From: Nitrospirota bacterium
GTDB taxonomy: Bacteria; Nitrospirota; Nitrospiria; Nitrospirales; Nitrospiraceae
Assembly: GCA_040757595.1 (NCBI GenBank)
Contig: JBFLWP010000003.1
Location: 166,873 to 230,872 of the forward strand
Length of the DNA stretch: 64,000 bases
Reading direction: 5' to 3'
Shown here in pieces: positions 4,474 through 43,872 of this stretch. The notes below the pieces were generated by a model that had not been told where the DNA came from, ran no database searches, and was given only the letters and a program-made list of their open reading frames with translations. The stretch's first letter is position 1. Each line of letters opens with the position of its first letter. Both the position numbers and the translations under genes were made by a program.

Positions 4474-5373
4474 ATGACCCAAGACTCCACCCAGCAGCCG
4501 CCTCGACGGTTCAAGCCTCTGCGGCTGCTCTTCTGGCTGTTGGTCGCCGGATTCGTGCTCACGATCCTGGCCAACGTCCTGGGGCCGGACATGGATCTTT
4601 CCGGCGAGGATCGCGTTGCGCTGATCCGGGTCGAGGGCGTGATCCTGGACGCCCACCAGACGGTCAGCGACCTGAAGCGGTACGCGGAAAGCCCATCGGT
4701 CAAGGCGATCGTGCTGCGGATCGACAGCCCCGGCGGCGGGGTCGTCCCCTCGCAGGAAATCCACGACGCGGTCAAGCGCGTCCGCAACAAGAACAACAAG
4801 GCGGTCGTCGCGTCCATGGGGACCGTGGCGGCCTCGGGCGGCTACTACATCGCCGCGGCGACGGACCGCATCATCGCCAATCCCGGCACGCTGACGGGCA
4901 GCATCGGCGTCATCATGGAGCTGGCGAACCTGGAGGGGCTGCTCAAGAAGATCGGCGTGGAGAGCGTGGTGGTGAAGAGCGGCCAGCACAAGGATATCGG
5001 CTCCCCGTTCAGAAAGATGGACGAGTCGGACCGGCGGATCCTGCAAGCCGTGATGGACGACGTGCACCGGCAGTTCATCGAGGCGGTCGCCGAGGGTCGG
5101 GCGTTGGACGTGCGGGACGTGCAGCCGCTGGCCGACGGGCGCATTTTCACCGGCCGGCAGGCCGTGGCGGCGAAGCTGGTCGATGAGCTGGGGGACCTGG
5201 AAGACGCGATCAGGCTCGCGGGCGAGATGGGCGGGATCGAGGGAGAGCCGAAGGTCGTGGAGCCGAAGCGGCGGTTTTCCATTCGCGAGCTGCTCGAGAG
5301 CCACCTGTTCGGGTCGCTCCCCCGGTTGGATTTCCAGACGGGAGTCAGCCTCAAATACCTGATGGCGTTCTGA
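4474..5373 (+). CDS. sppA: signal peptide peptidase SppA (peptidase S49)
   Basis: A membrane-anchored serine protease that degrades cleaved signal peptides. An N-terminal membrane segment lies at about residues 17-36. The nucleophile is Ser121 in GTVAASGGYY and the general base Lys173 in GQHKDIGSP; their 52-residue spacing matches the short Bacillus-type SppA rather than the duplicated E. coli type. Total length is 299 residues. The 78-base gap after rpsA contains a purine-rich stretch (ggcggagg) ahead of the ATG. ihfB follows after a hairpin-containing gap. Confidence 0.93.
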   Translation: MTQDSTQQPPRRFKPLRLLFWLLVAGFVLTILANVLGPDMDLSGEDRVALIRVEGVILDAHQTVSDLKRYAESPSVKAIVLRIDSPGGGVVPSQEIHDAVKRVRNKNNKAVVASMGTVAASGGYYIAAATDRIIANPGTLTGSIGVIMELANLEGLLKKIGVESVVVKSGQHKDIGSPFRKMDESDRRILQAVMDDVHRQFIEAVAEGRALDVRDVQPLADGRIFTGRQAVAAKLVDELGDLEDAIRLAGEMGGIEGEPKVVEPKRRFSIRELLESHLFGSLPRLDFQTGVSLKYLMAF

Positions 5374-5467: not shown

Positions 5468-5746
5468 ATGACGAAGGCACAGATCATCGAACGGGTGGCG
5501 GCGGAAGTTCCCACGTTGACGAAACGGCAGGCCGAGATCGTGGTGAACACCATCTTCAACAGCATCCGCAATTCCCTGCAGAAGGGGGACAAGACCGAGA
5601 TCCGGGGCTTCGGAAGCTTCCGCCTGCGCGCCCGCCGGATGAAGGAGGGCCGCAACCCCAAGACCGGCGCCACCGTCTCCGTGCCGGCCAAAAAGGTGCC
5701 TTTCTTCAAAGCCGGGAAAGAACTCAAGGAACTGCTGAACAAGTAA
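5468..5746 (+). CDS. ihfB: HU/IHF-family DNA-bending protein, IHF beta-like
   Basis: A small nucleoid protein that bends DNA as a dimer. The 92 residues show the family signature RGFGSF, then GRNPKTG and VPFFKAGKELKELL, closest by eye to IHF beta. The ATG at 5468 follows a strong ribosome binding site (agaggaggcggagga); the upstream in-frame ATG at 5423 would add 15 unconserved residues. An IHF-type protein is relevant here because lpxC in this window has a sigma54 promoter with an IHF-like site. HU rather than IHF cannot be excluded from sequence alone. Confidence 0.88.
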   Translation: MTKAQIIERVAAEVPTLTKRQAEIVVNTIFNSIRNSLQKGDKTEIRGFGSFRLRARRMKEGRNPKTGATVSVPAKKVPFFKAGKELKELLNK

Positions 5747-5775: not shown

Positions 5776-6780
5776 ATGGGAAGCTACGACGCAGGGGAAT
5801 CGGCTGCCACCTCAGAAATCGTCTGGACCGAGGAGGCGCTCAAACGCATGGAGCGGGCCCCGGTCTTCCTCCGGGGCATGGTGAAGAAGCTGGCCGAGAA
5901 GAAGGCTCGGGAGCTGGGCTACGGCGAGATCACCGCCGAGATCCTGGACCGGTTCAAGAGCCAGATGATGGGGCGCATGGGCGGAGAGGCCGGCATGGCG
6001 GCCGCCGCCGCCCAGATGGAGAAGGGGCAGCTCCCTTGGACCGCCGCCGCGCGGGAGCGGCTGGAGACCGTGCCCGAGTTCATGCGGCCCATGATCAAGC
6101 AGATCGCCGAGGAATTGGCGGCGGAGGGCGGTCACCTCGAGGTCAACGTCGAGCTGTTCCAGCGGGTGGAGGCTTTGGGTGATCGGGAGGAGCAGGCCCG
6201 GCCGCCCATGGAGTGGACCGAGGGCGCCCTGGCCCGGCTCCGGGACAAGATCAAGCACTCGCCGCCCATCGCGATGGACTTCGTGGCCGACATGCTGAAG
6301 CGGGACACGGAGGACCTGGCCCGTGAGAAGGGGATCGCCCAGATCGACGAGGCGGCGCTGAGCCGGCTCTGGGACGCGCCGCAGGAGCGGATCGCCTGGA
6401 CGGACGAAGCCTGGAAGCGCCTCCAGACCTCCCCGGACTTCGTGCGGAGCGGGATCAGGAAGGCGGCCGAGCGCCGGGCCCGCAAGCTGGGCCTGAAGGA
6501 GATCGATTCTGAGCACCTCACGAAGTTCCGGAACGAGGCGATGATGAAGGCCGTGAAGCGCATCCGGAGCTTCGGCTATCAGGAGCTCACGTTCGACGCG
6601 TTCGAGACGGCGCTCCAGAAGACCAAGCGTCTGCAAGGGAACGAGCAGGCCGAGAAACGCCTCGAGGAAATCCGGCAGCACTTCAAGAATCCGGAGACCA
6701 AGAAGCCGGAGGGCGGGACGCTCGGCGCCGAGCTCATGGACCGGTTCCGTCGCTATCTCAAGGGGGAAGGCCCCCTCTAA
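5776..6780 (+). CDS. tandem PCP_red-domain protein (four repeats)
   Basis: The 334 residues hold four copies of a helical module starting WT(E/D)xAxxRL and ending in a Leu-rich helix, at about 17-57, 88-128, 147-195 and 208-248. The module matches the small PCP_red domain known from the C-terminus of the light-independent protochlorophyllide reductase B subunit (recognised by eye). Here it stands alone, with no nitrogenase-like partner or other bacteriochlorophyll gene in the window. The first and fourth copies are most canonical (APVFLRGMVKKLAEKKAREL; SPDFVRSGIRKAAERRARKL). No signal peptide, so probably cytoplasmic. Function is unknown. Confidence 0.7.
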   Translation: MGSYDAGESAATSEIVWTEEALKRMERAPVFLRGMVKKLAEKKARELGYGEITAEILDRFKSQMMGRMGGEAGMAAAAAQMEKGQLPWTAAARERLETVPEFMRPMIKQIAEELAAEGGHLEVNVELFQRVEALGDREEQARPPMEWTEGALARLRDKIKHSPPIAMDFVADMLKRDTEDLAREKGIAQIDEAALSRLWDAPQERIAWTDEAWKRLQTSPDFVRSGIRKAAERRARKLGLKEIDSEHLTKFRNEAMMKAVKRIRSFGYQELTFDAFETALQKTKRLQGNEQAEKRLEEIRQHFKNPETKKPEGGTLGAELMDRFRRYLKGEGPL

Positions 6781-9561: not shown

Positions 9562-9756
9562 ATGAGGCGGTTTCTCTGGTGGTTCGGCATGGGGTCGTTG
9601 ACCACGCTCGCGGTGCTGATGGTGCAAGGCGGGGTGCGGGACCTCCTCTACGACACGCATCCCGGCGGGAGCGGGTTCTTCAGCTTCGCGATCACGATTC
9701 TCGGCGGCGGCTTGCTGGCCGGCTGTCTGGCGTTGATCCTGGGTCGGTTACGTTGA
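9562..9756 (+). CDS. small membrane protein (64 aa)
   Basis: It begins MRRFLWWFGMG and carries two hydrophobic helices (about residues 4-22 and 39-60) joined by a short polar loop with DTHPGGSG. The start at 9562 is chosen because it lies a normal distance downstream of a consensus promoter; the longer reading would start inside that promoter. No family recognised. The promoter and clean helices support a real gene. Confidence 0.6.
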   Translation: MRRFLWWFGMGSLTTLAVLMVQGGVRDLLYDTHPGGSGFFSFAITILGGGLLAGCLALILGRLR

Positions 9757-9772
9757 AAAGGAGCGATTCCGC

Positions 9773-9801
9773 TTGACAGTCCAGCTGGGGCAAGGTAGAA
9801 G
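9773..9801 (+). promoter_or_regulatory. sigma70-type promoter
   Basis: TTGACA (9773-9778), a 17-base spacer and TAGAAG (9796-9801), 67 bases upstream of the zinc-ribbon gene at 9868. It probably drives that gene and the overlapping carboxypeptidase. Confidence 0.6.
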
Positions 9802-9867
9802 CAGCGAGCAAGCGCGCCGTACCCACAGGACGGGCTCAAGGTTTGAACGCCTTCAGCCGACAACGGA

Positions 9868-10056
9868 ATGCATTGCCTGAAGTGCAAGGGCTACATGATG
9901 GTCGAGCGGCACTATACGCTGCTCAACCGCCGTCTGTACGCGCGATGCCTCAATTGCGGGTTCTGGCTGGACCTGGCCGATCTGTTGCGGTTCTTTCACA
10001 AGGTGCTCGACAGCGCGGTGCGTGGTGCGAAGGTTCGTGAGACCATCACGTTGTAG
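9868..10056 (+). CDS. small zinc-ribbon protein (62 aa)
   Basis: Two Cys pairs, CLKC at residues 3-6 and CLNC at 27-30, form a likely zinc ribbon, followed by an amphipathic helix (LADLLRFFHKVLD). No specific family is recognised. It sits behind its own promoter, and its 3' end overlaps the start region of the carboxypeptidase gene by 35 bases, suggesting co-expression. Confidence 0.65.
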   Translation: MHCLKCKGYMMVERHYTLLNRRLYARCLNCGFWLDLADLLRFFHKVLDSAVRGAKVRETITL

Positions 10057-11002
10057 CCGTTCATTGACCGGGTTCTGCGGGAACCTGCTCGGCCTGGCTT
10101 GCGCGACAGCCGTCATGGCCGCGATGGCGCCGGCGGCGTCACGAGCCGAGACCTCCCCCCTTCCCTCTTACGCCGTATCCCACGTGGCCTCCGCGTCCGC
10201 CGCCCGGACCGCACGCATCGAACGCCACCGGGCGCTCCGGCCGTTCCACGGGTTCCGTTACGCCGCCAGCGGGGTGTTGCTCAAGGATCTGGCCACGGGC
10301 CGGACCCTGTACGAATTCGGCTCGGACCAGCGGCTCTCGCCGGCCAGCTTAACCAAGATCATGTCGGCGCTGGTGATCCTGGAGCAGGGGCAGCTCCAGG
10401 ACTCCGCCACCGTGAGCCGCAAGGCGGCGACCGCGCACAAGATCCGCCTGGGGCTCCGGTCCGGCTACGTCTTCCGCCTGGAGGATCTGCTCAAGGCCAT
10501 GCTGATCACGTCGGCCAACGACGCCTGCCTGGCCGCAGCGGAGCACGTGGCGGGGTCGGAGGAGCGCTTCGTGGACCTCATGAACGAAAAGGCCGCCGCG
10601 CTCGGGCTCACGGACACCCACTTCAGCAACGCCTGCGGATTCGACGGCCCGTTGCACTACTCGACGGCGGCGGATCTGGCGAAGCTCAGCGAGGTCGCTC
10701 TGCAGCACCCGGTCTTCCGATCCCTCGTGCGGGAAGAGGCGGAAGTCATCACCGCCCTCAACGCGAATCGGACCTACCTGCTCAGGAACACGAACCGGTT
10801 GCTCGGCCGCCTGCCCGGCGTGGAGGGGGTGAAAACCGGATTCACGTCGCGCGCCGGCCGGTGTCTGATTGCGAAGGTCTCTCAGGATGGAAAGGAACTG
10901 CTCCTCGTGCTTCTGAACGCCAGGCGTCGCTGGAACACCGCATCCAGTCTGATCCATTACGGGCTCGAGCGGCTGGATCAGCCGCTGCCGACCTTGCGGT
11001 AG
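10022..11002 (+). CDS. D-alanyl-D-alanine carboxypeptidase (peptidase S11)
   Basis: A penicillin-binding protein of the PBP5/6 class that trims peptidoglycan pentapeptides in the periplasm. The three active-site motifs are present: SLTK (Ser109), SAN (164-166) and KTG (271-273). An export signal covers about residues 14-42, ending near ASRAE. The start is uncertain: the GTG at 10022 is used, but a later start such as the TTG near 10064 is possible, since the signal peptide core begins there. The C-terminal beta domain and membrane anchor of PBP5 are missing; the protein ends soon after the catalytic domain, like smaller family members. Confidence 0.88.
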   Translation: MVRRFVRPSRCSRSLTGFCGNLLGLACATAVMAAMAPAASRAETSPLPSYAVSHVASASAARTARIERHRALRPFHGFRYAASGVLLKDLATGRTLYEFGSDQRLSPASLTKIMSALVILEQGQLQDSATVSRKAATAHKIRLGLRSGYVFRLEDLLKAMLITSANDACLAAAEHVAGSEERFVDLMNEKAAALGLTDTHFSNACGFDGPLHYSTAADLAKLSEVALQHPVFRSLVREEAEVITALNANRTYLLRNTNRLLGRLPGVEGVKTGFTSRAGRCLIAKVSQDGKELLLVLLNARRRWNTASSLIHYGLERLDQPLPTLR

Positions 11003-11170
11003 AGGCGTCGGGCTTCCCCGCGCTCCCGCCCCGTTCTCTTCCCCGTTCAATTTGTCGAGAAACTCTTTGAGACAAGCTCGGGCCAGGACCGGCTGCACGG
11101 GCGGAGCAGTCCTGTGGACGGGTCAGAGGGAGACGGCGTGACGTCCGCCTGCGACGGCGGCCGGGCTTCG

Positions 11171-11704
11171 CTACGGGGCGGGTGAAAATTCGATGTTGAC
11201 GTCCTTGCCCAGATAATTCACCAGAAATCCCTGCTTTCCATAGTTCAGCACGGCGCCCATCACGTTTTCGTCCCCGGAATCTTCCTTTCCCAGGATCTTC
11301 CGGACTTCGTCCGGGCTCTCGCTGTTCAGCACGTTGCGGAAGACGCCGCGTGTCTTGTAGGCGAATCGATTGTTGATGAAGATCAAATCCACCTTCCCGT
11401 CCATGAGGCGCACCCCGGCCATCGGTCCGGTCGGTTTCCGCTGGTCCAGGAGCAGGATGAACGTGCCCTCCAGCTCGCTCTTCACCCCCGGGATCTTTTC
11501 GTTCACGAGGATGTCCATGGCCTTGCTTTCGGGATCGCCGAGCTTGACGCCGAACAGGGAGACCTCCGCGCTCTTGATTTGCTTGGGGTCCATGACGTCG
11601 GACTTGGTCAGTTCGTAAGACTCGGCCCCGGCCAGGCCTCCCGTCAGGAACAGCGTTGCGAGCCCCAGCGAGGCGCACCACAGCGGCCACCGTCGTGCTT
11701 CCAT
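11171..11704 (-). CDS. exported protein of unknown function (177 aa)
   Basis: A signal peptide (hydrophobic residues 7-25, likely cleaved after LAGA) leads into a 150-residue mixed alpha/beta domain with repeated VKLGDPESKA and LNSESPDEVRKILGK-like turns. No known family is recognised. The ribosome binding site is gggaggattcg and a good promoter lies upstream on the same strand, so this is an independent unit. The 168-base gap to the carboxypeptidase gene shows nothing notable. Confidence 0.75.
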   Translation of the reverse strand: MEARRWPLWCASLGLATLFLTGGLAGAESYELTKSDVMDPKQIKSAEVSLFGVKLGDPESKAMDILVNEKIPGVKSELEGTFILLLDQRKPTGPMAGVRLMDGKVDLIFINNRFAYKTRGVFRNVLNSESPDEVRKILGKEDSGDENVMGAVLNYGKQGFLVNYLGKDVNIEFSPAP

Positions 11705-14976: not shown

Positions 14977-16317
14977 ATGGGGCCTTCCATGATCAGACGG
15001 CGTTGCGCGTTCATCGTTTCCCGATCGGCCGTGGCCGGGCTCGTGCTCCTGGCCGCTGCCTGCACGGGCGTGGCGCACGCCGGGGGAGCGCAGCCGGTCG
15101 TCGTGGCCACCTACGACGGCGTCGTCAACCCGGTCACGGCCGAGTACGTACACGACGCGCTGGCGTTCGCGGAGACGAGCGGCGCGCAGGCCCTCATCGT
15201 CCGGTTGGACACGCCGGGCGGACTCGATACCTCGATGCGGGTGATCATCAAGGATTTCACGGGCGCGCGGCTGCCCGTGGTGGTCTACGTGGCGCCGTCC
15301 GGAGGGCGGGCCGCCTCAGCCGGCGTCTTCCTCACGTTGGCGGCTCACGTCGCCGCCATGGCGCCGGGCACCAATATCGGCGCCGCCCACCCGGTGGCGA
15401 TGGGCGGGAGCGAGATGGACAAGACCATGAAGGAAAAGGTCGAAAACGACTCGGTCGCCTACATCAAGTCCATCGCGGAGCAGCGGGGGCGAAACGTCGC
15501 CTGGGCGGAGGATGCAGTGCGCAAAAGCGTATCAGCCACGGAAAAGGAGGCCCTGGCCCTGAAGATCGTGGATTTGGTGGCGGACGACCTCGACGGCCTG
15601 CTCGAGAAACTGGAGGGGCGGACCGTCGCGCTTGCCACCGGGTCCGTGGTGCTCAAGACGAAGGGGGCGACGGTGCGCGAGTTCCCGATGGGGTGGCGGC
15701 TGGAGCTCCTCCAGACCCTCAGCGATCCCAACATCGCCTACGTGCTCATGACGATCGGAACGATCGGGCTGCTCGCCGAGCTGTACAATCCCGGCGCCAT
15801 CCTCCCCGGCATCGTGGGCGCGATCAGCCTCATCCTGGCCTTCTACTCGTTCCAGTCGCTGCCGGTGAACTACGCGGGCGTGCTGCTGATCCTTCTCGGG
15901 ATCGTGCTGTTCATCCTGGAAGTCTCCGTGACCAGCTACGGCCTGCTGGCGATCGGGGGCGTCGTCTCGATGATCCTCGGGTCGCTGATGTTGGTGAAGG
16001 GCGGGGCCCCGTTTCTGCAAATTTCCTGGGCCGTCATCCTGCCCGTCGTCGGCATGGCGGCGGCCTTCACCCTGCTGGTGGTCGGCATGGGCATCCGCGC
16101 GATGCGGCGCCCGCCGCTGACGGGAGGGGAGGGGATGGTGGGGATGATCGGGGTCGCCAAGACGGCGGTCGCGCCCCAGGGGCGGGTTCTGGTTCACGGC
16201 GAGTTGTGGGACGCGGTCAGCGACCAGCCGGTGCAGCCGGGAGAGCGGGTGGAGGTCACCCGGCTGGAAGGGCTGACACTCCACGTGAAGCCCGCGTTGA
16301 GAAAAGGGGAGGCCTGA
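14977..16317 (+). CDS. NfeD-family membrane serine protease (NfeD1b, ClpP-class)
   Basis: A signal peptide leads into a ClpP/SppA-like protease domain: [11 protein letters not shown], then the nucleophile in [12 protein letters not shown], with the Lys of the dyad in the following [13 protein letters not shown] region. Four to five membrane helices (about residues 255-375) precede a C-terminal OB-fold NfeD domain ([18 protein letters not shown]...). 446 residues. An alternative ATG lies at 14989. It is followed after one base by a slipin gene; NfeD-stomatin pairs are a known conserved couple in which the protease cleaves the stomatin partner in membrane quality control. Confidence 0.93.
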
Positions 16318-16318
16318 C

Positions 16319-17092
16319 ATGAATCTCATCTTCAGCCCGCTCACGGTTCTGATCCTGTTCGCGCTGGTCGTCGGCATGGGGTTCCACGTCCTGCGGGAAT
16401 ACGAGCGGGCCGTGATCTTCCGGTGGGGACGGCTGGCCCGCGGCCTCGTGGGAGGCACCGGGCCCGGCGTCGTGATCATCATCCCGTTCGTCGACAAGCT
16501 GGTCCGGGTCAGCCTGCGGACGGTCGCGATGGACGTGCCGCCCCAGGACGTCATCACGAAGGACAACGTGACGGTCAAGGTGAACGCGGTCATCTATTTC
16601 CGCGTGGTGGACCAGCAGCGGGCGATCGTGGAAGTCGAGGACTACCTCTACGCGACCTCCATGATGGCGCAGACGACGCTCCGCAGCGTGCTGGGACAGA
16701 GCCAGTTGGACGATCTCCTGTCCAGGCGGGACGAGATCAACACCGAGTTGCAGCGGATCATCGACCAGCAGACGGAGCCCTGGGGCGTCAAGGTCACGGC
16801 CGTGGAGGTCAAGAACGTGGACCTGCCCCAGGAGATGCAGCGGGCCATCGCCCGGCAGGCGGAGGCCGAGCGGGAGCGCCGGGCCAAGGTCATCCACGCC
16901 GAAGGCGAGTACCAGGCGGCCCAGCGACTGGCCGAGGCGGCTGGCGTGATCAGTCAGAATCCGGTGGCCTTGCAGCTCCGGTATCTCCAGACCCTCGTGG
17001 AGATCGCCGCCGAAAAGAATTCCACCACGATCTTCCCCGTCCCCATCGACATCATCACCCCGCTCATCAAGGGGCTGGAGCGGAAGGCCTAG
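16319..17092 (+). CDS. slipin (SPFH/stomatin-like protein)
   Basis: One N-terminal membrane helix (residues 5-22), then an SPFH/Band-7 domain ([32 protein letters not shown]) and an Ala/Glu-rich C-terminal helix ([19 protein letters not shown]) that drives oligomer formation. 257 residues. It starts one base after nfeD, so the two are certainly co-transcribed and probably act as a protease-scaffold pair in the membrane. Confidence 0.94.
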
Positions 17093-17144
17093 GCGGAGGA
17101 CCTCTGCGGGCGGGGACCTGACGACCATTTGGAGCGAGTGAGCC

Positions 17145-32746: not shown

Positions 32747-33130
32747 ATGAGCGGGATGGAGCTGCTCCTTGAGTATTTAGGCCGCTACTTCCCGGTTCTG
32801 CTGTTCATCGTGATCGCGCTGGCCTTCGGCGTGGTCACGTTGGTCATCAGCTATTTGGTCCAGCCCAAGTATCCGGAACCGGAGAAGCTCAGCGCCTACG
32901 AATGCGGCAGCGAGCCCTTCTCCGATGCCCGGATGCCCTTCCCCGTCCGCTATTACATCTTCGCGATGCTGTTCGTCATCTTCGATATCGAGGTGATCTT
33001 CCTGTATCCCTGGGCGGTCGTCTTCGACAAGATCGGGCTCATCGGTCTGGTCGAGATGCTGATCTTCATCGGCCTGTTCCTGGTCGCCTACGTGTACGCG
33101 TGGCGCAAAGGCGCGCTGGAGTGGGACTGA
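32747..33130 (+). CDS. nuoA: NADH-quinone oxidoreductase subunit A
   Basis: Three membrane helices (about residues 12-37, 67-90, 97-117) and the conserved loop with the reactive Cys in YECGSEPFSDA. 127 residues; ATG at 32747 or 32756. NuoA helps form the quinone-binding site at the junction of the membrane and peripheral arms of complex I. First gene of nuoABCDGIJKLMMN. Confidence 0.96.
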   Translation: MSGMELLLEYLGRYFPVLLFIVIALAFGVVTLVISYLVQPKYPEPEKLSAYECGSEPFSDARMPFPVRYYIFAMLFVIFDIEVIFLYPWAVVFDKIGLIGLVEMLIFIGLFLVAYVYAWRKGALEWD

Positions 33131-33288
33131 ATGGGTGACGGGTGACGCGTGATGAGTGACGGACGACGCGGGGATGGGGCGACACGGGGACTCGGAGATG
33201 GAGATCGCCGCGTCGCCCCCTCGCCGTGTCTCCGCGTCGGTTCATTGGCGTGGCACTTGTCACGCATCACCGAACACGGGGCTTCGAG
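33131..33288. repeat. compound heptad-word inverted repeat, nuoA-nuoB junction
   Basis: Outer words GGGTGAC, GGGTGAC, GCGTGAT, GAGTGAC, GGACGAC on the left and TTGTCAC, GCATCAC on the right. A second, longer inverted repeat is nested inside, with GGCGACACGG opposite CCGTGTC and GGGGCGA opposite TCGCCCC. The predicted RNA is a long stem just before nuoB. Confidence 0.7.
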
Positions 33289-33804
33289 ATGGGCTTGATC
33301 CAGATCGGACGGCACGAGAAGGATGGGCAACTGGACGTGATCACCACGACGGTCGAGAAGGCCGTCAACTGGGCACGCAAGGGCTCGCTCTGGCCCATGA
33401 CGTTCGGGCTCGCCTGCTGTGCGATCGAGATGATCGCGGCCGTCTCCTCCCGCTACGACATGGACCGGTACGGGGCTGGCGTCTTCCGGGCGTCGCCGCG
33501 CCAGTCCGACCTGATGATCGTGGCCGGCACGGTCTGTCGCCGGATGGCGCCCGTGATCCGCAAGATCTACGATCAGATGCCGGAACCCAAGTACGTGATC
33601 GCCATGGGGTCCTGCGCGACCTCCGGCAACATCTACGACAGTTACAGCGTCGTCCAGGGCGTGGACCGGTTCGTGCCGGTGGACATCTACGTGCCCGGCT
33701 GCCCGCCCACGCCCGAAGCTCTGTTCGACGGCATCCTCAAGCTGCAGGAGCGGATCATGCAGAAGCGGGTCTTCACCAAGCAGCCGGACGCCGTCAAAGC
33801 GTGA
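33289..33804 (+). CDS. nuoB: NADH-quinone oxidoreductase subunit B
   Basis: It carries cluster N2, the last iron-sulfur cluster before quinone. The four ligand cysteines are seen in [17 protein letters not shown] and [10 protein letters not shown]. 171 residues from the ATG at 33289 ([14 protein letters not shown]); an in-frame GTG-type start further up lies in the repeat and is rejected. Confidence 0.96.
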
Positions 33805-33887
33805 TGGGTGATGAGCGATGGGTAACGGGTTGAAAAGCGGTCCGGAGATTTTTCCCTCTGCGTCACGCATCACCCATCACGATAGTT
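33805..33887. repeat. heptad-word inverted repeat, nuoB-nuoC junction
   Basis: Left words GTGATGG, GTGATGA, GCGATGG, GTAACGG; right words GTCACGC, ATCACCC, ATCACGA. The loop is about 25 bases. Confidence 0.75.
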
Positions 33888-33891
33888 TGAG

Positions 33892-34383
33892 ATGCATCCG
33901 ATAGCCGAGCGCATCCAGCAGAAGTTTCCCGAGTCCTTCGTTCAGGCCGTGGAGTGGCGCGGGGATTTGGCCGTGACCGTCAAACGGGAGGCCCTCCACG
34001 GCGTGGCGCGATTCCTCCACGACGACCCGGGGATGGATTTCGACTACATCGTCCACGTGAGCTCGGTGGACTGGCCGGACGACGAGGGGCGGTTCGAAGT
34101 CGTCTACGAGTTCTATTCGATCCGGAAGCGGCATCGGATCCGGCTGAAGACCCGCGTGCCCGAGGCCGATTGCACGGTGGACTCCCTGACGGACATCTGG
34201 AAGGGCGCCAACTTCATGGAGCGCGAGGTCTACGACATGATGGGCATCCGGTTCCGCAACCACCCGGACCTGCGCCGCATCCTGATGCCGGACGATTATT
34301 CCGAAGGGTACCCGCTCCGGAAAGACTTTCCGGTGCAGGGAAAGGGGTGGCGGGACACGTTCGAGTTCCTGAACGAGACATAG
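33892..34383 (+). CDS. nuoC: NADH-quinone oxidoreductase subunit C
   Basis: A peripheral-arm subunit in contact with NuoD. The family signature is EREVYDMMGIRFRNHPDLRR followed by ILMPDDYSEGYPLRKDF. 163 residues; a separate gene, not fused to nuoD as in E. coli. Confidence 0.95.
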   Translation: MHPIAERIQQKFPESFVQAVEWRGDLAVTVKREALHGVARFLHDDPGMDFDYIVHVSSVDWPDDEGRFEVVYEFYSIRKRHRIRLKTRVPEADCTVDSLTDIWKGANFMEREVYDMMGIRFRNHPDLRRILMPDDYSEGYPLRKDFPVQGKGWRDTFEFLNET

Positions 34384-34466
34384 TGTTGAATTGTGAATTT
34401 TGAGTTTTGAATTGGCTGGAGCCTGATAACTAAACACTCAAAACTACAAACTCCAAACTTTTTCTA
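34384..34466. repeat. heptad-word inverted repeat, nuoC-nuoD junction
   Basis: Left words TGTTGAA, TTGTGAA, TTTTGAG, TTTTGAA; right words TAAACAC, TCAAAAC, TACAAAC, TCCAAAC. The AT-rich vocabulary differs from the other copies, yet the arms remain complementary. Confidence 0.75.
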
Positions 34467-34469
34467 CGC

Positions 34470-35714
34470 GTGAAATTGGAAGATCAACGACAGACCGTTT
34501 ACAGGGTCGATCCCGACCATCCGGAGACTGATACGCTCCCGCTCGTCCGAACCGAGGAGCTGCTCCTCAACATGGGACCGCAGCATCCGAGCACGCACGG
34601 GGTGCTGAAGGTGATCCTGGAGTTGGAAGGGGAGCGGATCGTCAAGTCCACGCCGGTCATGGGCTTCCTCCACCGGGGAGTCGAGAAGCTGGCGGAGGAC
34701 GGGACCTACCAGCAGTTCATCCCGCACACGGACCGGCTGGACTACGTCTGCGCGATGTACAACAACTTCGCCTACTGCCGCGCGGTCGAGAAGCTGATGA
34801 ACGTCACCGTGCCGGAGCGGGCCGAGTACCTGCGCACGATCGTCGCGGAGGTGCAGCGGATCATCGGGCACCAGTTCTGGCTGGGCACGCAGGCCCTCGA
34901 CATTGGGGCCATGACGGTCTTCTTCTACACGTTCCGCGACCGGGAGATCCTCCTCGACTGGTTCGACGAGCTCTGCGGGGCGCGCCTGACGACGAGCTGG
35001 TACCGGATCGGCGGGGTGGAGCGGGACCTGACGCCTGCGCTGATCGAGAAGCTCCGGCGCTTCCTCGACTACTTCCTGCCGAAGATTGACGAGTACGTCG
35101 TGTTCCTGGAGAAGAACCGCATCTGGCTCGCCCGGACGAAGGGCGTGGCGGTGATCTCGGCGGAGGACGCGGTTAACTTCGGGCTCAGCGGCCCGACGCT
35201 CCGCGGGTCCGGCGTGGACTACGACCTGCGCAAGTACGAGGCCTACGGGGCCTATCCCCGGTGCGAGTTCAGCGTCCCGGTGGGCAAGAACGGCGACACC
35301 TACGACCGGTACTGGATCCGGGTCGAGGAGATGCGCGAGAGCGTCAAGATCATCAAGCAGTGCCTGGCCCAGATGCCGGAAGGCCCGATCATGGCCGACG
35401 TCCCCAGCGTCACCCTGCCGAAGAAGGAGCGGGTCTTCACGAACCTGGAGTCCATGATCCAGCAGTTCAAGCTCTTCTCGCAGGGGTTCGACGCGCCGAA
35501 GGGCGAGGTCTACTGCGGGACCGAGGCCCACAAGGGCGAGCTGGGCTTCTACATCGTCAGCGCGGGCGGCGGGAAGCCCTACCGGCTGAAGATCCGCGCC
35601 CCGTCGTTCATTCACATGGGCGCGTTCGATTATATGGCGCGGGGCTACATGATCGCGGACGCCGTGACGATCTTCGGGACCTACGACATCGTCATGGGGG
35701 AGTGCGACCGCTGA
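34470..35714 (+). CDS. nuoD: NADH-quinone oxidoreductase subunit D
   Basis: The 49-kDa-type subunit that lines the quinone cavity. Conserved stretches are NMGPQHPSTHGVL, MGFLHRGVEKL, RLDYVCAMYNN and the C-terminal ARGYMIADAVTIFGTYDIVMGECDR region. 414 residues. The GTG at 34470 follows the inverted repeat directly with no clear ribosome binding site, so initiation may depend on the hairpin or on coupling. Confidence 0.96.
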   Translation: MKLEDQRQTVYRVDPDHPETDTLPLVRTEELLLNMGPQHPSTHGVLKVILELEGERIVKSTPVMGFLHRGVEKLAEDGTYQQFIPHTDRLDYVCAMYNNFAYCRAVEKLMNVTVPERAEYLRTIVAEVQRIIGHQFWLGTQALDIGAMTVFFYTFRDREILLDWFDELCGARLTTSWYRIGGVERDLTPALIEKLRRFLDYFLPKIDEYVVFLEKNRIWLARTKGVAVISAEDAVNFGLSGPTLRGSGVDYDLRKYEAYGAYPRCEFSVPVGKNGDTYDRYWIRVEEMRESVKIIKQCLAQMPEGPIMADVPSVTLPKKERVFTNLESMIQQFKLFSQGFDAPKGEVYCGTEAHKGELGFYIVSAGGGKPYRLKIRAPSFIHMGAFDYMARGYMIADAVTIFGTYDIVMGECDR

Positions 35715-35793
35715 AGACGTGAAAGGTGAGAGGTGAAACGTGAGAAGCCGCGGTGGGGTTTCGTTTCACGTCTTACGTTTCACGTTTTACGGA
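35713..35793. repeat. heptad-word inverted repeat, nuoD-nuoG junction
   Basis: Left words ACGTGAA, AGGTGAG, AGGTGAA, ACGTGAG; right words TTTCACG, TCTTACG, TTTCACG, TTTTACG. nuoE, nuoF and nuoH are not found here or elsewhere in the window. Confidence 0.75.
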
Positions 35794-35801
35794 GTTGAGA
35801 C

Positions 35802-38549
35802 ATGGCTCTGAAACCGGCCACCAATCCCGAAGTCGAAGCGGCGACGATCGAGCTGACCATCGACGGTCAGACCGTCACGGCCAAGGACGGGGTCTCGCTG
35901 TACGACGTGATCGCCAGCACGGGGAAGATCATCCCCGCGATGTGCTACCACTACACCTTCGACCCCTTCGGCTCCTGCGGCATGTGCCTGGTGATGCAGG
36001 AGGGCAAGAAGGCGCCGGTCCGCTCCTGCACGGCCAAGGCCACGGCCGGCATGGTGATCCGGACGGACGGCGACGAACTCTTCCAGGCCCGCAAGAAGGC
36101 GGTCGAGAAGCACCTGTCGGTCCACCCGCTGGACTGCCCGGTCTGCGACGCGGACGGCCACTGCGAGCTCCAGGACATGGCGTTCCTGCACCGGGTGACC
36201 AGTCTGGCCAACGCCAAGCAGAAGCTGATCCCGGAGGACACGCGCAGCCTCGTGCTCGACTTCAACATGAACCGCTGCATCGCCTGCGGCGAGTGCATCA
36301 ACATCTGCAAGGACGTGCAGATGATCGACGCGCTCCAGTTCATGAAGAAGGGCGGCTTCAACCAGGTGGTGGCCAAGGGCGACGTCGCGCTCTCCTGCGA
36401 GTTCTGCGGCGACTGCCTGGCGGTCTGCCCGGTCGGGGCGATCACGAACAAGTTCTCCAAGTACCTCTACAAGCCCTGGCAGCTGAAGAAGACCACGACC
36501 ACCTGCAACTACTGCGGGGACGGCTGCCAGATGCACGTCGAGACCAAGGACACGGAAGTGGTCCGCGTCACGTCGCCCCTGTCCTGGAAGAACAAATGGG
36601 GAGACCGGGCCGAGACCGTGAAGGGCCACGGCGGGCTCTGCGTGCGGGGCCGGTTCGGCTTTCAGTTCATCGACAACAAGAGCCGGCTGGGAATGCCCCT
36701 GGTCCGGCAGGACGACCGTCTGGTCGAGGCTCCCTGGCTGGAGACGATGCACCGGCTCGTGGACCGGCTGGCCGAGATCAAGGCCCAGCACGGGCCTCGG
36801 GCCATCGCGGGCCTGATCACGGCGCGCTGCACGAACGAGGATCTGTACCTGTTCCAGAAGCTCATGCGGGTGGCGATCGGGACCAACCAGCTCGACTCGA
36901 GCGCGCGGTACGGCCACATGAACTTCGTCCACGCGGTCCGGAAGGCGCTCGGCGCGGGCCGGATGACGAACGACTCCGAGGACATCACCAAGGCCAAGGC
37001 CATCCTCGTGGTCGGGTCCAACATCACCGAGACGAACCCCCTGGCCAGCGTGCGCGTGAAGCAGGCGATCCGCACGTACGGCGCGCAGGTGATCGTCGTG
37101 GATTCGGCCATGACCAACATCGCGAAGCTGGCGTCCCACCCGATGCTCGTCAAGCCGGGCACCGAGGGACTCTTCCTCCAGGGGCTGGTCAAGGCGGTGG
37201 TCGAGCAGGACCTCATCGACGAGGAGGCGACGGGGAAGCATCCGCAGGCCTTCGCCGCGCTCAAACGGGCGGTGGCGGCGGTGTCGCTGGAAGCGGTGGC
37301 CGCCCAGACCGGGGTGCCGGCGGAGCAGATCCGCGAGTGCGCCGCCATCTTCGCGGAAGCGCCGCGCGCGGTGATCATCTGCGGCGAAGGGATCGTCCGG
37401 CGGGCGGGCGGCTACCGGCACGTCCTGACCGCGGTGGACCTGGCCTGGGTGACCGGCAAGCTGGGAAGGCCCGGTTGCGGGATCAACACGGTGGTCGAGG
37501 AGGCCAACGAGCAGGGAGCGGCGGACATGGGTGCGGCGCCGGAGTTCCTGCCGGGCCAGGCCCGGTTCGGGGACGAAGCGGCGCGGGCCAAGTTCGCGAA
37601 GGCCTGGGGAGGCGACTCGCCGGCCCAGTTGCCGCCTGCGAAAGACGGCGCCGGTTTGATGGAGATCCTCAAACGCTGCCGGAGCGGAGCGATCAAGGCC
37701 CTGTACGTGATTGGGGAGAATCCGGTCGCCACGCTGCCGGCTTCGCTGGAGGTCAAGGAGGCGCTGTCCAATCTCGATTTGCTGATCTGCCAGGATCCTT
37801 TTTTGACCGAGACCGCGCAACTGGCCCACTTCGTCCTGCCCGCCTGCACGTTCGCGGAGAAGGACGGGACCGTGACCAATCAGGAGGGCAAGGTCCAGCG
37901 CGTCCGCCAGACGATGGATCCGATCGGGGAGAGCCTCCCCGACTGGTACATCATGACGGCGCTGTCCAGCGGCCTGGGCTACCCGCTCGATTATGAATCG
38001 CCGCAGGACATCCAGAACGAGATCATGAAGCTGCTGCCCGGCTACTACAACCTCGGCCAGCCCCGGAAGCTCGCCCCGACACCAGACGCCTATCTGGCCG
38101 ACGGCTTCGCGGCCGAGGTGGCGGACCGGTATTCGGACGGGGGCGCCTCTCGCGCTTCACGTCTCACCTCTCACGATCAGTCGTTCACTCTGCTCATGGG
38201 GCAGGTGCTCTACCATTCCGGCAAGCTCTCCACACAGGCCTCCGGGTTGATCCGGATCGCACCGAACACCGGACGGCTGCGGATGAACGGGCAGGACCTG
38301 GAGCGATTGGGGCTGGGTTCCCGGAGCCCGGAGGGATCGGGAGGGGCGGGCGGACGGGTCCGCGTCATTTCGGAGCGCGGCTCGCTGGAGATGGGGGTGC
38401 AAGCGGACCCGTCGGTGCTGCCTGGGAGCTGCTTCTTCCCCGAGCATTTCAACGAGCCGCCGGTCAAGGACCTGATGCCGGTCGAGGTCGACGCCGTCAC
38501 GGGGGTTCCCTCGTTCAAGCTGGCGCGCGTCTCTATTGAAAAGGCCTGA
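35802..38549 (+). CDS. nuoG: NADH-quinone oxidoreductase subunit G
   Basis: The large iron-sulfur subunit of the peripheral arm, 915 residues. In order: a [2Fe-2S] domain (FGSCGMC and CTAKATAGM), the His/Cys cluster (HPLDCPVCDADGHCELQDM), two [4Fe-4S] motifs (CIACGECINIC; CEFCGDCLAVCPVGA), a further cluster site (CNYCGDGC ... CVRGRFG) and a molybdopterin-oxidoreductase-like body that in NuoG holds no molybdenum. Residues about 784-793 are encoded by one arm of a heptad-word repeat, an apparent insertion before the C-terminal domain. ATG at 35802 with ggagttgag upstream. Confidence 0.95.
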   Translation: MALKPATNPEVEAATIELTIDGQTVTAKDGVSLYDVIASTGKIIPAMCYHYTFDPFGSCGMCLVMQEGKKAPVRSCTAKATAGMVIRTDGDELFQARKKAVEKHLSVHPLDCPVCDADGHCELQDMAFLHRVTSLANAKQKLIPEDTRSLVLDFNMNRCIACGECINICKDVQMIDALQFMKKGGFNQVVAKGDVALSCEFCGDCLAVCPVGAITNKFSKYLYKPWQLKKTTTTCNYCGDGCQMHVETKDTEVVRVTSPLSWKNKWGDRAETVKGHGGLCVRGRFGFQFIDNKSRLGMPLVRQDDRLVEAPWLETMHRLVDRLAEIKAQHGPRAIAGLITARCTNEDLYLFQKLMRVAIGTNQLDSSARYGHMNFVHAVRKALGAGRMTNDSEDITKAKAILVVGSNITETNPLASVRVKQAIRTYGAQVIVVDSAMTNIAKLASHPMLVKPGTEGLFLQGLVKAVVEQDLIDEEATGKHPQAFAALKRAVAAVSLEAVAAQTGVPAEQIRECAAIFAEAPRAVIICGEGIVRRAGGYRHVLTAVDLAWVTGKLGRPGCGINTVVEEANEQGAADMGAAPEFLPGQARFGDEAARAKFAKAWGGDSPAQLPPAKDGAGLMEILKRCRSGAIKALYVIGENPVATLPASLEVKEALSNLDLLICQDPFLTETAQLAHFVLPACTFAEKDGTVTNQEGKVQRVRQTMDPIGESLPDWYIMTALSSGLGYPLDYESPQDIQNEIMKLLPGYYNLGQPRKLAPTPDAYLADGFAAEVADRYSDGGASRASRLTSHDQSFTLLMGQVLYHSGKLSTQASGLIRIAPNTGRLRMNGQDLERLGLGSRSPEGSGGAGGRVRVISERGSLEMGVQADPSVLPGSCFFPEHFNEPPVKDLMPVEVDAVTGVPSFKLARVSIEKA

Positions 38550-38561
38550 GGAGAGGAGTAG

Positions 38562-38583
38562 GCTGTCGCGGCTTCGCGGCAGC
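38562..38583. other. short hairpin between nuoG and nuoI
   Basis: GCTGTCGCG (38562-38570) and CGCGGCAGC (38575-38583) pair with one G-U wobble around a 4-base loop. It is not built of heptad words and has no T-run. Confidence 0.45.
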
Positions 38584-38603
38584 GAAGGGATCGGGAGAGG
38601 AGC

Positions 38604-39191
38604 ATGAGCGTCGGCGCGCTGACGAGGAAGGTTCTGCAGGCGGCCCTGTTCTATGAGATTTGGGACGCGATGAAAGTGACCTTCAAACACATGTTCCATC
38701 GGCCGATCACCTTCCAGTACCCGCGGGAGCAGCGGACGATCCCGGACACGCACCGGGGCGCGCTGGGCCTGCTGCGCTACGACGATGGGCGGGAGCGCTG
38801 CGTGGGGTGCGACCTGTGCGAGGCGGCCTGCCCCTCCCGCTGCATCAAAGTCATCAGTGCGGAGAACAGGGATCTGCCGCTCCAGCGGTACGCGAGCGAG
38901 TTTTACATCGACATCACGAAGTGCGTGTTTTGCGGGTACTGCGTGGAGGCCTGCCCGGTCAACGCGCTGGCGATGACCAAGCTCTACGAGTATTCCACCC
39001 ACGACAAACGGACCCTCCTGTTCGATAAACGGCGGCTCTACGAGATCGGGGAACGGCATTTGGCTGACGCGAAGAAGTATTTGGTGGCCCACAACCAGGA
39101 GAAGGACGACCAGTGGAGCCGCGACTACCGGTACTTCTTTCCCCAGTCGGTCCAGAAACCGACGCAGCCGCCGCCGAAACACCTGACCTGA
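38604..39191 (+). CDS. nuoI: NADH-quinone oxidoreductase subunit I
   Basis: It carries clusters N6a and N6b in two CxxCxxCxxxC sets: CVGCDLCEAACPSRC and CVFCGYCVEACPVNA. The N-terminal amphipathic segment attaches it to the membrane arm. 195 residues; the C-terminus is Gln/Pro-rich. In complete clusters nuoH normally precedes it; here nuoG does. Confidence 0.96.
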   Translation: MSVGALTRKVLQAALFYEIWDAMKVTFKHMFHRPITFQYPREQRTIPDTHRGALGLLRYDDGRERCVGCDLCEAACPSRCIKVISAENRDLPLQRYASEFYIDITKCVFCGYCVEACPVNALAMTKLYEYSTHDKRTLLFDKRRLYEIGERHLADAKKYLVAHNQEKDDQWSRDYRYFFPQSVQKPTQPPPKHLT

Positions 39192-39201
39192 TTCGACATC
39201 C

Positions 39202-39723
39202 ATGATCCTGCTGTTCTTCGTCTATTTTTCCCTGGTAAGCATTGCCGCCGGGGTGCTCACGGTTGCGCTGCGGAACCCCGTGCACTGCGGCCTGGCGCTG
39301 CTGACGCTGCTGCTGCACGTGGCCGGACTGTTCGTGCTCCTCAACGCCGAGTTCCTCTTCGCCGTCCAGATCATCGTCTACGCGGGCGCCATCCTGGTGC
39401 TCTACCTGTTCGTGCTGATGCTCCTCAACCTGAAGACGGACGAGCGGTACCTCCACACCCGCTACGCGGTGATCCTCTTTGCCGCCGTCGCGGTCTGCGG
39501 GGAGCTCCTGCTGCTGGTGCTGCGGTCTCCGTTCGGCGGCGCGCGCGGCGATGCCCCGGCGGACACGGTGCTCCAGACCGGGCCGAGCCACGCCGTCGGG
39601 ATCAAGATGTTCAGCGACTACCTGCTGCCGTTCGAGATCGTCGGGGTCTTCCTGCTGGGCGCCATCATCGGGGCGATCGTGCTGGCGAAAACCCCTTCTT
39701 CAACGGACGAACGTGAAGCGTGA
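39202..39723 (+). CDS. nuoJ: NADH-quinone oxidoreductase subunit J
   Basis: Five membrane helices. The third has the conserved AVQIIVYAGAILVLYLFVLM with its pi-bulge Tyr. 173 residues. It begins ten bases after nuoI; the C-terminal residues lead into the heptad-word repeat. Confidence 0.94.
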   Translation: MILLFFVYFSLVSIAAGVLTVALRNPVHCGLALLTLLLHVAGLFVLLNAEFLFAVQIIVYAGAILVLYLFVLMLLNLKTDERYLHTRYAVILFAAVAVCGELLLLVLRSPFGGARGDAPADTVLQTGPSHAVGIKMFSDYLLPFEIVGVFLLGAIIGAIVLAKTPSSTDEREA

Positions 39724-39800
39724 AGCGTGAAGCGTGAAGCGTGAAGCGTGAAGCGAAGAAAGATCCCTAACGCTTTACGAGCGACGAGAGACGAACGACG
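39715..39800. repeat. heptad-word repeat, nuoJ-nuoK junction
   Basis: One ACGTGAA word and then GCGTGAA five times in tandem form the left arm; the right arm (GCTTTAC, then GACGA-type words) matches poorly. This copy shows the tandem 7-base unit most clearly and looks recently expanded. Confidence 0.75.
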
Positions 39801-39806
39801 ATTGTT

Positions 39807-40109
39807 ATGGTTCCATTGAGCGCATACGTGGCCGTGAGCGCGATCCTGTTCGCGACCGGCCTGATCGGCGTGCTGATCCGCCGGAACTTCATCATCGTCT
39901 TGATGGCGGTCGAGGTCATGCTGAACGCGGCCAACATCAACCTGGTCGCCTTCTCTCACTATCTGGAGTCCATGGCGGGCCAGATCGTGGCGCTGTTCGT
40001 GATCGCGATCGCGGCCGGCGAGGCGGCGGTGGGCCTGGCGATCATCATCGTCGTGTTCCGCGGCAAACTGTCGACCAACGTGGATGAAATGAATCTCTTA
40101 AAGTGGTAA
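39807..40109 (+). CDS. nuoK: NADH-quinone oxidoreductase subunit K
   Basis: Three membrane helices with the conserved acidic residues in VLMAVEVMLNAANIN and the next helix (VIAIAAGEAAVGLAI), part of the proton path. 100 residues, standard length. It is followed one base later by nuoL. Confidence 0.95.
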   Translation: MVPLSAYVAVSAILFATGLIGVLIRRNFIIVLMAVEVMLNAANINLVAFSHYLESMAGQIVALFVIAIAAGEAAVGLAIIIVVFRGKLSTNVDEMNLLKW

Positions 40110-40110
40110 C

Positions 40111-42111
40111 GTGTTCGAGCTGCTCGTCCTTCTGATCCCGACCTTTCCGCTCCTGGCCGTGCTCCTGAACGGCCTGCTGGGGCACCGTTACTCGCACGAG
40201 GTGGCACACCGGCTGGCCTGGGGCTCGGTGGGGCTGTCGTTCCTCTGCGCGATCTGGGTCTTCGCCGACACGCTCCACACGGGCGTTCCGCGCGAAGTGG
40301 TGGCCTATCGCTGGATCTTCGGCGGCGACCTCACGGTCAACCTGGCCTTCCTGATTGATCCGCTGACCTGCGTCATGCTGCTGGTCGTGACCGGCGTCGG
40401 GTTCTTCATCCACCTCTATTCGGTCGGGTACATGCACGGGGAGGAGGGGTTCACCCGCTTCTTCACCTACATGAACCTGTTCATGGTGTCCATGCTCCTG
40501 CTGGTGATGGGGAACAACTACCTGGTCCTCTTCATCGGCTGGGAGGGCGTGGGGCTCTGCTCCTACCTGCTGATCGGCTACTACTTCGACCGGGTCTCGG
40601 CGGCCAAGGCGGCGACCAAGGCCTTCGTCGTGAACCGGATCGGGGACGCCGGCTTCCTCCTGGCGATCTTCCTCGTCTTCATGAACTTCAAGACGCTGGA
40701 CTACACCCAGGTCTTCGCCCAGGCGGGCCACCTCTCGACCGGGATGGCGACGGCGATCGCCCTCTGTCTGCTGATCGGGGCGGTCGGAAAGTCCGCCCAG
40801 GTCCCCCTGTACACCTGGCTGCCCGACGCGATGGAGGGGCCGACGCCGGTCAGCGCGTTGATCCACGCCGCCACGATGGTCACGGCCGGCGTGTACATGA
40901 TCGTGCGCAACCACGTGCTCTACGACATGGCGCCGGTGGCCATGACCACGGTGGCCTGGATCGGCGGCGGCACGGCCCTCTTCGCCGCGACGATCGGGCT
41001 CGTCCAGACGGACATCAAGCGGGTGCTGGCCTATTCCACGGTCAGCCAGCTCGGCTACATGTTCCTGGCCTGCGGGATCGGGGCTTACACGGCCGCGATC
41101 TTCCACCTGATGACCCATGCGTTCTTCAAGGCGCTGCTGTTCCTGTCGGCCGGCTCCGTCATCCACGCCCTTCACGGCGAGCAGGACATCCGCAAAATGG
41201 GCGGCTTGAAGTCCAGGATTCCCTGGACCCACGGCCTGTTCCTCGTCGGGACGCTGGCGATCGCCGGCATCTTCCCCCTGTCCGGGTTCTGGAGCAAGGA
41301 CGAGATCCTGGCCCACGCCTTCACGCACGGCTACTACGCCCTCTACGCGATGGCGGCGGTCGGGGCCTTCCTGACGGCCTTCTATATGTTCCGGCTCACG
41401 TACCTGACCTTCTACGGCCAGTCTCGCGTGGACCACCATACGGCCGAGCACATCCACGAGTCGCCTCCGGTCATGATCGGGCCGCTCGTGGTGCTCGCGG
41501 CCCTGTCGGTGATCGGCGGCTTCCCCGGCGTCCCGCCGGAGGCCGGCTGGTTCCATCACTTCCTGCACCCCGTGACGGTGTCGGCGGGAGGCGAAGGCGG
41601 GCACGAGATCGGCTTCGGGCTCCTCGCGACGCTGATGGGAGTGGCGACCGCGATCGCGCTGGCCGGGTGGGGCCTGGCCCATTACCTGTACAGCGTCCGC
41701 CCCGAGGCCGCGCCGGAGTTGGCCGCGCGCCTGCCCGGCGCCTACACGACGCTCTTGAACAAGTACTACGTGGACGAGCTCTACGACCTGCTGTTCGTGG
41801 AGCCCACCAAGCGTCTGGGACAGGTCTGGGACTGGTTCGACCGGAACGTCATCGACCGGATCGTCCTCGGGGTGGGGCAGATGACCCAGTCGGGCTCGGC
41901 GGCCAGCACCTGGATCGAGAAACACGTGATTTACGGGTTCCTGAACGTCGTGGGTTACGCCAACCACCTGGCAGCCCGCTCCTGGCGGCAGTTGCAGTCC
42001 GGACAGGTGCACCATTACGCGGCCATCATCGTGGCCGGACTCTTCATCCTGGTCCACCTGATCCTCGCCTGGTGGAGCGGCTCATCCGGCATCGGGGTGG
42101 CGTGGCGGTAA
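40111..42111 (+). CDS. nuoL: NADH-quinone oxidoreductase subunit L
   Basis: The distal antiporter-like proton pump of complex I. It has the key Glu in FIGWEGVGLCSYLL and the helix-7 Lys in GAVGKSAQVPLYTWLPDAM; the C-terminal part (from about 540) contains the long lateral helix and a last anchor helix (YAAIIVAGLFILVHLILAW). 666 residues, longer than E. coli NuoL (613); a longer lateral helix would be needed to span two NuoM subunits. GTG start one base after nuoK. Confidence 0.95.
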   Translation: MFELLVLLIPTFPLLAVLLNGLLGHRYSHEVAHRLAWGSVGLSFLCAIWVFADTLHTGVPREVVAYRWIFGGDLTVNLAFLIDPLTCVMLLVVTGVGFFIHLYSVGYMHGEEGFTRFFTYMNLFMVSMLLLVMGNNYLVLFIGWEGVGLCSYLLIGYYFDRVSAAKAATKAFVVNRIGDAGFLLAIFLVFMNFKTLDYTQVFAQAGHLSTGMATAIALCLLIGAVGKSAQVPLYTWLPDAMEGPTPVSALIHAATMVTAGVYMIVRNHVLYDMAPVAMTTVAWIGGGTALFAATIGLVQTDIKRVLAYSTVSQLGYMFLACGIGAYTAAIFHLMTHAFFKALLFLSAGSVIHALHGEQDIRKMGGLKSRIPWTHGLFLVGTLAIAGIFPLSGFWSKDEILAHAFTHGYYALYAMAAVGAFLTAFYMFRLTYLTFYGQSRVDHHTAEHIHESPPVMIGPLVVLAALSVIGGFPGVPPEAGWFHHFLHPVTVSAGGEGGHEIGFGLLATLMGVATAIALAGWGLAHYLYSVRPEAAPELAARLPGAYTTLLNKYYVDELYDLLFVEPTKRLGQVWDWFDRNVIDRIVLGVGQMTQSGSAASTWIEKHVIYGFLNVVGYANHLAARSWRQLQSGQVHHYAAIIVAGLFILVHLILAWWSGSSGIGVAWR

Positions 42112-42112
42112 G

Positions 42113-42208
42113 GAACGTGAAGCGTGAAACGTGAAGCGTTGGACGTAGGAGGGTGCGGGCGAATCCCAGGCCGGTGGTTGTCTTTAGCGCTTCACGCTTC
42201 ACGAGCGG
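42113..42208. repeat. heptad-word inverted repeat, nuoL-nuoM junction
   Basis: Left words ACGTGAA, GCGTGAA, ACGTGAA, GCGTTGG; right words GCTTCAC, GCTTCAC with TTTAGC before them. The loop is about 55 bases. Confidence 0.75.
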
Positions 42209-42224
42209 CACATGACGCGATTTT

Positions 42225-43871: not shown

Positions 43872-43872
43872 G

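Follow-up and report, generated by a model that had tools for sequence, protein, structure and literature searches.

The window analyzed here is a stretch of 64,000 nt, and all coordinates and strands are given in its numbering. Positions 5776 to 6780 of the plus strand hold a gene, starting with ATG, for a free-standing protein of 334 aa, referred to here as PCP4, in which four PCP_red (PF08369) repeats are followed by a conserved helical tail. Pfam hmmscan returned PCP_red as the sole family above its cutoff (E value of 8.2e-46; 154.2 bits, cutoff of 32.5), matched in four stretches; the preliminary description of this DNA, which had recognized a whole protein made of four PCP_red domains, was therefore borne out, with the qualification that repeat 3 taken singly falls below the cutoff. 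In a six-frame genome scan, repeat 1 (aa 14 to 62; 5815 to 5961, plus strand), repeat 2 (aa 85 to 133; 6028 to 6174, plus strand), and repeat 4 (aa 205 to 253; 6388 to 6534, plus strand) scored above the PF08369 cutoff on their own, at 57.6, 50.1, and 51.8 bits, respectively, the first two being domains marked by a local HMM, whereas the diverged repeat 3 (aa 146 to 197; 6211 to 6366, plus strand), which has a longer first loop, reached 23.6 bits. Judged from alignment and predicted structure, repeat 3 is nevertheless a genuine PCP_red repeat, because it is found in place in the class orthologues aligned (alignment A1, 18 sequences) and shows the same order of secondary structure as the other repeats in an AlphaFold2 model. 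Profile searches assigned no family to the helices of the tail (aa 254 to 334; 6535 to 6777, plus strand).

The four repeats share 29 to 45% pairwise identity, and repeat 1 and the PCP_red part of BchB in PDB entry 2xdq share 44%. Recent expansion of the repeats was ruled out, as repeats at the DNA level within the gene are no longer than 24 nt. PCP4 has no cysteine and is near neutral (pI of 7.8), with a basic repeat 4 (charge of +6); across the 18 sequences of A1, pI ranges from 6.0 to 9.2 and net charge from -3 to +5. No cysteine or histidine is invariant among these sequences, so any axial ligation would need another residue.

The AlphaFold2 model of PCP4, built from an input of 37 sequences drawn from the window and related loci only, had a mean pLDDT of 71.3 and a pTM of 0.52. 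All four repeats were modeled as strand-helix-helix-strand-helix, with pLDDT mostly in the 80s for repeat 3 and with less certainty for the helical tail; repeat 4 and the tail folded alone gave a poor model (pLDDT of 62.8). The top Foldseek rows were 2kru and 2l09, the two PCP_red structures that have been solved (E values of 8.9e-3 and 7.7e-2; TMt of 0.76 and 0.69; probability of 1.00 for both). They also took the top ranks in VIA-align 2, with Z scores of 8.2 and 7.5, the latter score being shared with unrelated RuvBL rows. The Foldseek and VIA-align 2 matches to RuvB/RuvBL, ClpC, and histones were weak and were not taken to indicate homology.

Upstream of PCP4, across a gap of 29 nt, lies an ihfB-like gene (5468 to 5746, plus strand; PRK00199 at 112.9 bits, just below the cutoff of 115), preceded by sppA, encoding a signal peptide peptidase (4474 to 5373, plus strand; TIGR00706 at 246.9 bits). 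The neighbors named in the preliminary description were thus identified correctly, ihfB as an IHF/HU-type gene. Its remark that the gene lies far from any pigment gene also held for the 64,000-nt window, in whose gene list we recognized no pigment-related gene on reading. The same reading turned up a run of genes at 32747 to 47030 that resembles a respiratory complex I (nuo) operon. It is probable, from the spacing and strand, that the ihfB-like gene and PCP4 are cotranscribed. A single scan covering 84,980 species genomes yielded 277 confirmed relatives, the best 80 of which are the named loci; nearly all of these are labeled Nitrospira, Nitrospiraceae, Nitrospirae, or similar (one is labeled "Nitrosospira"), and they include the complete genome of Nitrospira moscoviensis. 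An ihfB-like gene stands directly upstream of PCP4 on the same strand, 3 to 35 nt away, in all 80 named loci, with sppA upstream of ihfB in 79. That PCP4 is plasmid-borne was rejected, as a search of 72,556 plasmid records gave no match.

This arrangement is conserved in the Nitrospiraceae but does not look ancestral, because in most of the deeper class members examined PCP4 lies with other PCP_red genes. Within the Nitrospirales it appears to have moved into an rpsA-sppA-ihfB operon, about 14 to 38 kb from a gene for a zinc-ribbon-PCP_red protein in the genomes checked. In 9 of the 11 class loci examined outside the Nitrospirales, a further PCP_red gene lies no more than 5 kb from PCP4 (the exceptions are L049 and L050), and in three loci (L047, L048, and L053) it adjoins a gene for a radical SAM-PCP_red protein.

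A check of how tandem forms are distributed, suggested in the preliminary description, found PCP4 by protein search in 134 of 136 genomes of the class, of which it is thus a core gene. The two genomes with no PCP4 match, G027 and G169, both still carry PCP_red. A pN/pS of 0.19, from 600 random pairs of 81 coding sequences and to be read as a guide only since synonymous sites are near saturation, indicates that PCP4 is under purifying selection. By part, the ratio was lowest for repeat 4, the best conserved repeat (0.10; 0.099 unrounded), and the tail (0.12; 0.122 unrounded) and highest for the N terminus (0.62) and repeat 3 (0.28).

PCP_red is known from BchB, and the setting here had been described as apparently nonphototrophic, a view that our searches confirm. 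BchB (TIGR01278) was found in none of 295 phylum genomes, for each of which the best few first-look candidates were scored, and a cyanobacterial control was positive; the nitrogenase-like family PF00148 was found in none of 41 relatives, the window's own assembly included. PCP4 itself scored 84.5 bits with TIGR01278 (cutoff of 490.35), with the C terminus alone aligned. Given the PF00148 and BchB counts, the latter over the best first-look candidates, we ruled out that PCP4 is a remnant of BchB or part of a split DPOR. PCP_red, by comparison, occurs in 164 of the 295 phylum genomes and in all 41 relatives, at 4 to 12 copies each.

PCP4 had been presented as a single odd protein; the protein is as described, but its genome encodes five PCP_red proteins in all, PCP4 among them. 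The second, a radical SAM/SPASM protein of 455 aa, is NirJ/AhbD-like and ends in PCP_red. Its best curated matches are NirJ2 at 319 bits and AhbD at 314 bits (313.8 bits for the AhbD heme b synthase model, TIGR04545), both below cutoffs of 500, and it is present in 130 of 136 class genomes. The third, of 724 aa, carries three PCP_red copies together with two USP domains and a weak rubredoxin-like match, and its gene adjoins the radical SAM-PCP_red gene in 10 of the 11 loci showing the latter (the exception is in G027). The fourth, of 249 aa, has two CxxC pairs of a zinc ribbon and two PCP_red copies, and lies beside the Fe-S carrier Mrp. The fifth, of 168 aa with two PCP_red copies, has both DUF420 and a cytochrome bd-like oxidase as neighbors. 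All three stand together in locus L011, where a pair of cytochrome bd-like oxidase genes sharing 54% identity lies at 9608 to 11560 and 15166 to 17130. Elsewhere, in family f13, we observed a free-standing protein of 57 aa with a single PCP_red (L076, 1486 to 1659).

In all 20 class loci, the zinc-ribbon-PCP_red gene has Mrp/ApbC as its immediate same-strand neighbor; of 6 loci outside the class, 2 show this pairing (L180 and L185, but not L181 to L184). These loci had been chosen by a PCP_red or HDO match, not by Mrp. The neighboring Mrp scored 247.9 bits with the NUBPL/Mrp model and matched NifH/BchL models weakly. In class members outside the Nitrospirales, an HDO/CADD-like (heme-oxygenase-like) protein is also encoded beside the zinc-ribbon-PCP_red gene (L043, 9731 to 10501; L044 to L046; L052; and L168 to L174). 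This neighbor (PF14518) was considered as a member of the system and reduced to an optional one, since only 21 of 136 class genomes encode it and the window's own genome lacks it.

Fusions join PCP_red to several enzymes. A single 706-aa open reading frame (L066, 367 to 2487) encodes radical SAM, SPASM, and PCP_red domains and then PCP4 repeats 2 to 4 with the tail; from PCP_red onward it is 42% identical to PCP4, with repeats 2 and 4 marked by the local profile and repeat 3 by the alignment. In L067, profile domains and reading of the sequence place USP domains and PCP_red in one protein with repeat 4 and a PCP4-like tail. In two genera of family f21, PCP_red is joined to the Chlor_dismutase/HemQ family (L078, 1324 to 2451; L081, 1102 to 2487), with Chlor_dismutase matches of 60 and 66 bits (cutoff of 25). 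HemQ is the best NCBIfam model for both, at 48 and 47 bits, below its cutoff of 235, so that the subfamily is tentative. The start codons of the two reading frames are uncertain, but the proteins align over the whole length from just before PCP_red to the C terminus. In PDB entries 2xdq and 2ynm, PCP_red is part of BchB.

The heme pathway offers a context for these partners. A review assigns coproheme decarboxylation to AhbD in some organisms and to HemQ in others (PMC7242693), and another paper names a chlorite dismutase of Nitrospira defluvii (PMC5157759). In the window's own genome, hemE, hemH, and a HemY-type gene are consecutive. HemN was above its cutoff in 1 of 41 relatives (G027), and the HemN-like proteins that were checked, one each in G000 and G018, proved to be HemW; absence of HemN is by itself no proof of a coproporphyrin route. 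Siroheme decarboxylase (PF17805) was found in none of the 21 genomes searched, which would place the radical SAM-PCP_red protein outside the usual Ahb/Nir pathway. A match to ferrochelatase (PF00762) at an E value of 1e-10 was obtained in 15 of 21 genomes, with no match in G031, G003, G007, or three genomes of family f3 (G026, G029, and G032); those f3 genomes keep both PCP4 and the radical SAM-PCP_red protein, and G029 is a single-contig assembly. The HemN-positive genome, G027, carries the radical SAM-PCP_red protein and lacks PCP4, and its hemN-like gene has, on reading, unusual neighbors. We set this coincidence aside as evidence, as it concerns one genome and a gene so placed.

The reading that we prefer, at a probability of roughly 0.37, is that PCP4 serves a PCP_red-based tetrapyrrole system, of the heme branch and core to the class, as a multivalent carrier or scaffold. 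PCP_red would be a tetrapyrrole-handling module because it is joined to BchB, to NirJ/AhbD-like radical SAM proteins, and to Chlor_dismutase/HemQ-family proteins, and a heme-branch role for PCP4 is suggested because coproheme is decarboxylated by AhbD or, alternatively, by HemQ and because HemN was above cutoff in only 1 of 41 relatives. The L066 fusion and the gene order with other PCP_red genes tie PCP4 to this system, and its spread is close to that of the radical SAM-PCP_red protein (134 and 130 of 136 class genomes, respectively); the hemE-hemH-hemY run and the cluster of DUF420, PCP_red, and bd-like oxidase genes in L011 also argue for heme. The PCP_red fold would bind a flat tetrapyrrole or dock tetrapyrrole enzymes. 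In cells with HemE, HemH, and a HemY-type oxidase but without HemN, the radical SAM-PCP_red protein may carry out the last heme step, from coproheme to heme b. PCP4, with four sites, could then pass coproheme or heme between that enzyme and acceptors, or hold the enzymes together, and the 168-aa PCP_red protein, encoded next to the cytochrome bd-like oxidase, would serve one such acceptor. Counted against the heme reading are the lack of an invariant cysteine or histidine in the aligned PCP4 sequences, the scores of the radical SAM-PCP_red protein, well below the AhbD and NirJ2 cutoffs, the absence of siroheme decarboxylase from the 21 genomes searched, the presence of ferrochelatase in only 15 of 21 genomes, and the retention of the radical SAM-PCP_red protein in the HemN-positive G027; the USP, zinc-ribbon, CopD-like, and Mrp partners of PCP_red are not specific to tetrapyrroles. 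The earlier guess that a tandem array might be a tetrapyrrole- or cofactor-handling protein thus gains circumstantial support from the NirJ/AhbD-like and HemQ-family fusions and from the 40 of 41 relatives with no HemN above cutoff, and the binding itself stays putative. The accompanying statement that PCP_red helps to present substrate in DPOR finds no support in the passages of the DPOR and tetrapyrrole literature that we consulted.

A more far-reaching version, which we regard as rather doubtful, would make PCP_red a general coproheme- and heme-handling module, older or wider than chlorophyll synthesis. In the Nitrospiria, without HemN, a new subfamily of radical SAM enzymes tagged with PCP_red would complete heme; PCP4 would carry porphyrin within the cell on four sites, and delivery to oxidases and to Fe-S or redox partners would fall to the remaining PCP_red proteins. 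Such a heme-trafficking system would, on this version, have been missed because the PCP_red family is annotated as protochlorophyllide reductase.

Three other explanations were weighed against the heme-branch carrier or scaffold. The first, which we think unlikely, takes PCP_red as a generic small helical module for protein interaction with no shared ligand, so that PCP4 would scaffold an unrelated core process and the links to tetrapyrroles would be accidental. The diversity of partners (USP, rubredoxin-like, zinc ribbon, and radical SAM) and a fold resembling the RuvBL/RuvB lid, the ClpC N-domain, and histone-like rows, mostly weakly, are what such a module would lead one to expect, but all three enzyme types joined to PCP_red act on tetrapyrroles or belong to families of tetrapyrrole enzymes.

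The second, also unlikely but the main rival, holds that PCP_red docks Fe-S ATPases to clients with [4Fe-4S] clusters, with PCP4 as a scaffold on which cluster donor and client meet; in DPOR the ATPase would be BchL and the client BchNB, and here they would be Mrp/ApbC and the radical SAM protein. It is a serious rival because the Mrp neighbor is constant and the partner of BchB, BchL, is NifH-like. Radical SAM/SPASM proteins are carriers of Fe-S clusters, and the partner here matches both SPASM and Radical_SAM; the position of Mrp/ApbC beside the zinc-ribbon-PCP_red gene (20 of 20 loci within the class, 2 of 6 outside it) and the Mrp scores, with their weak NifH/BchL matches, point the same way. 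However, PCP_red is also fused to a HemQ-family protein, a family not known to contain an Fe-S cluster, and Mrp is a general carrier.

The third, a nucleoid- or translation-associated protein, as an operon with cmk, rpsA, sppA, and ihfB might imply, is very improbable: ihfB is directly upstream in all of the best 80 of 277 loci, histone-like folds appear among the weak structural matches, and repeat 4 is basic, but the net charge and pI of the 18 aligned proteins span the near-neutral ranges given above, and outside the Nitrospirales PCP4 is mostly beside PCP_red genes and away from sppA and rpsA.

If the heme-branch reading is true, a core and constrained protein of Nitrospira-type bacteria, a clade that includes nitrite oxidizers and comammox bacteria, acquires a function, and completion of heme without HemN in these bacteria becomes testable. 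PCP_red would also gain a general role; its role in DPOR is not discussed in the literature passages on DPOR that we consulted. Either way, PF08369 is unsafe as a marker of phototrophy, because it would flag every one of the 41 relatives examined here. In a 2026 paper, PF08369 is listed with the Pfam families whose prevalence in phototrophs is highest, and genomes are prescreened with photosynthesis-related Pfams ahead of a pathway check (PMC12815261).

The PCP_red domain and the solved structure of a single free-standing copy (2l09) are already known; the passages of the literature on PCP_red/PF08369, DPOR/BchB, and heme biosynthesis in Nitrospira that we consulted contain no description of a four-repeat core protein, of the five-protein set, or of the radical SAM and HemQ-family fusions. 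PCP4 shares its domain family and fold with the C-terminal PCP_red of the DPOR subunit BchB/ChlB, whose nitrogenase-like body it lacks. That single free-standing copy, Asr4154 of Nostoc, has the same fold as well, but it is one domain of 62 aa from a cyanobacterium, and hence a phototroph, whereas PCP4 has four repeats and a tail and belongs to a lineage without BchB. AhbD and NirJ, of heme b and heme d1 synthesis, provide the best models for the radical SAM-PCP_red partner, which falls below both cutoffs in a lineage where the siroheme decarboxylase family was absent from all 21 genomes searched. Within the same phylum, the HemQ/chlorite dismutase-PCP_red proteins of L078 and L081 likewise join PCP_red to a family of heme enzymes; unlike PCP4, they carry a single PCP_red copy and are seen only in family f21, among distant relatives.
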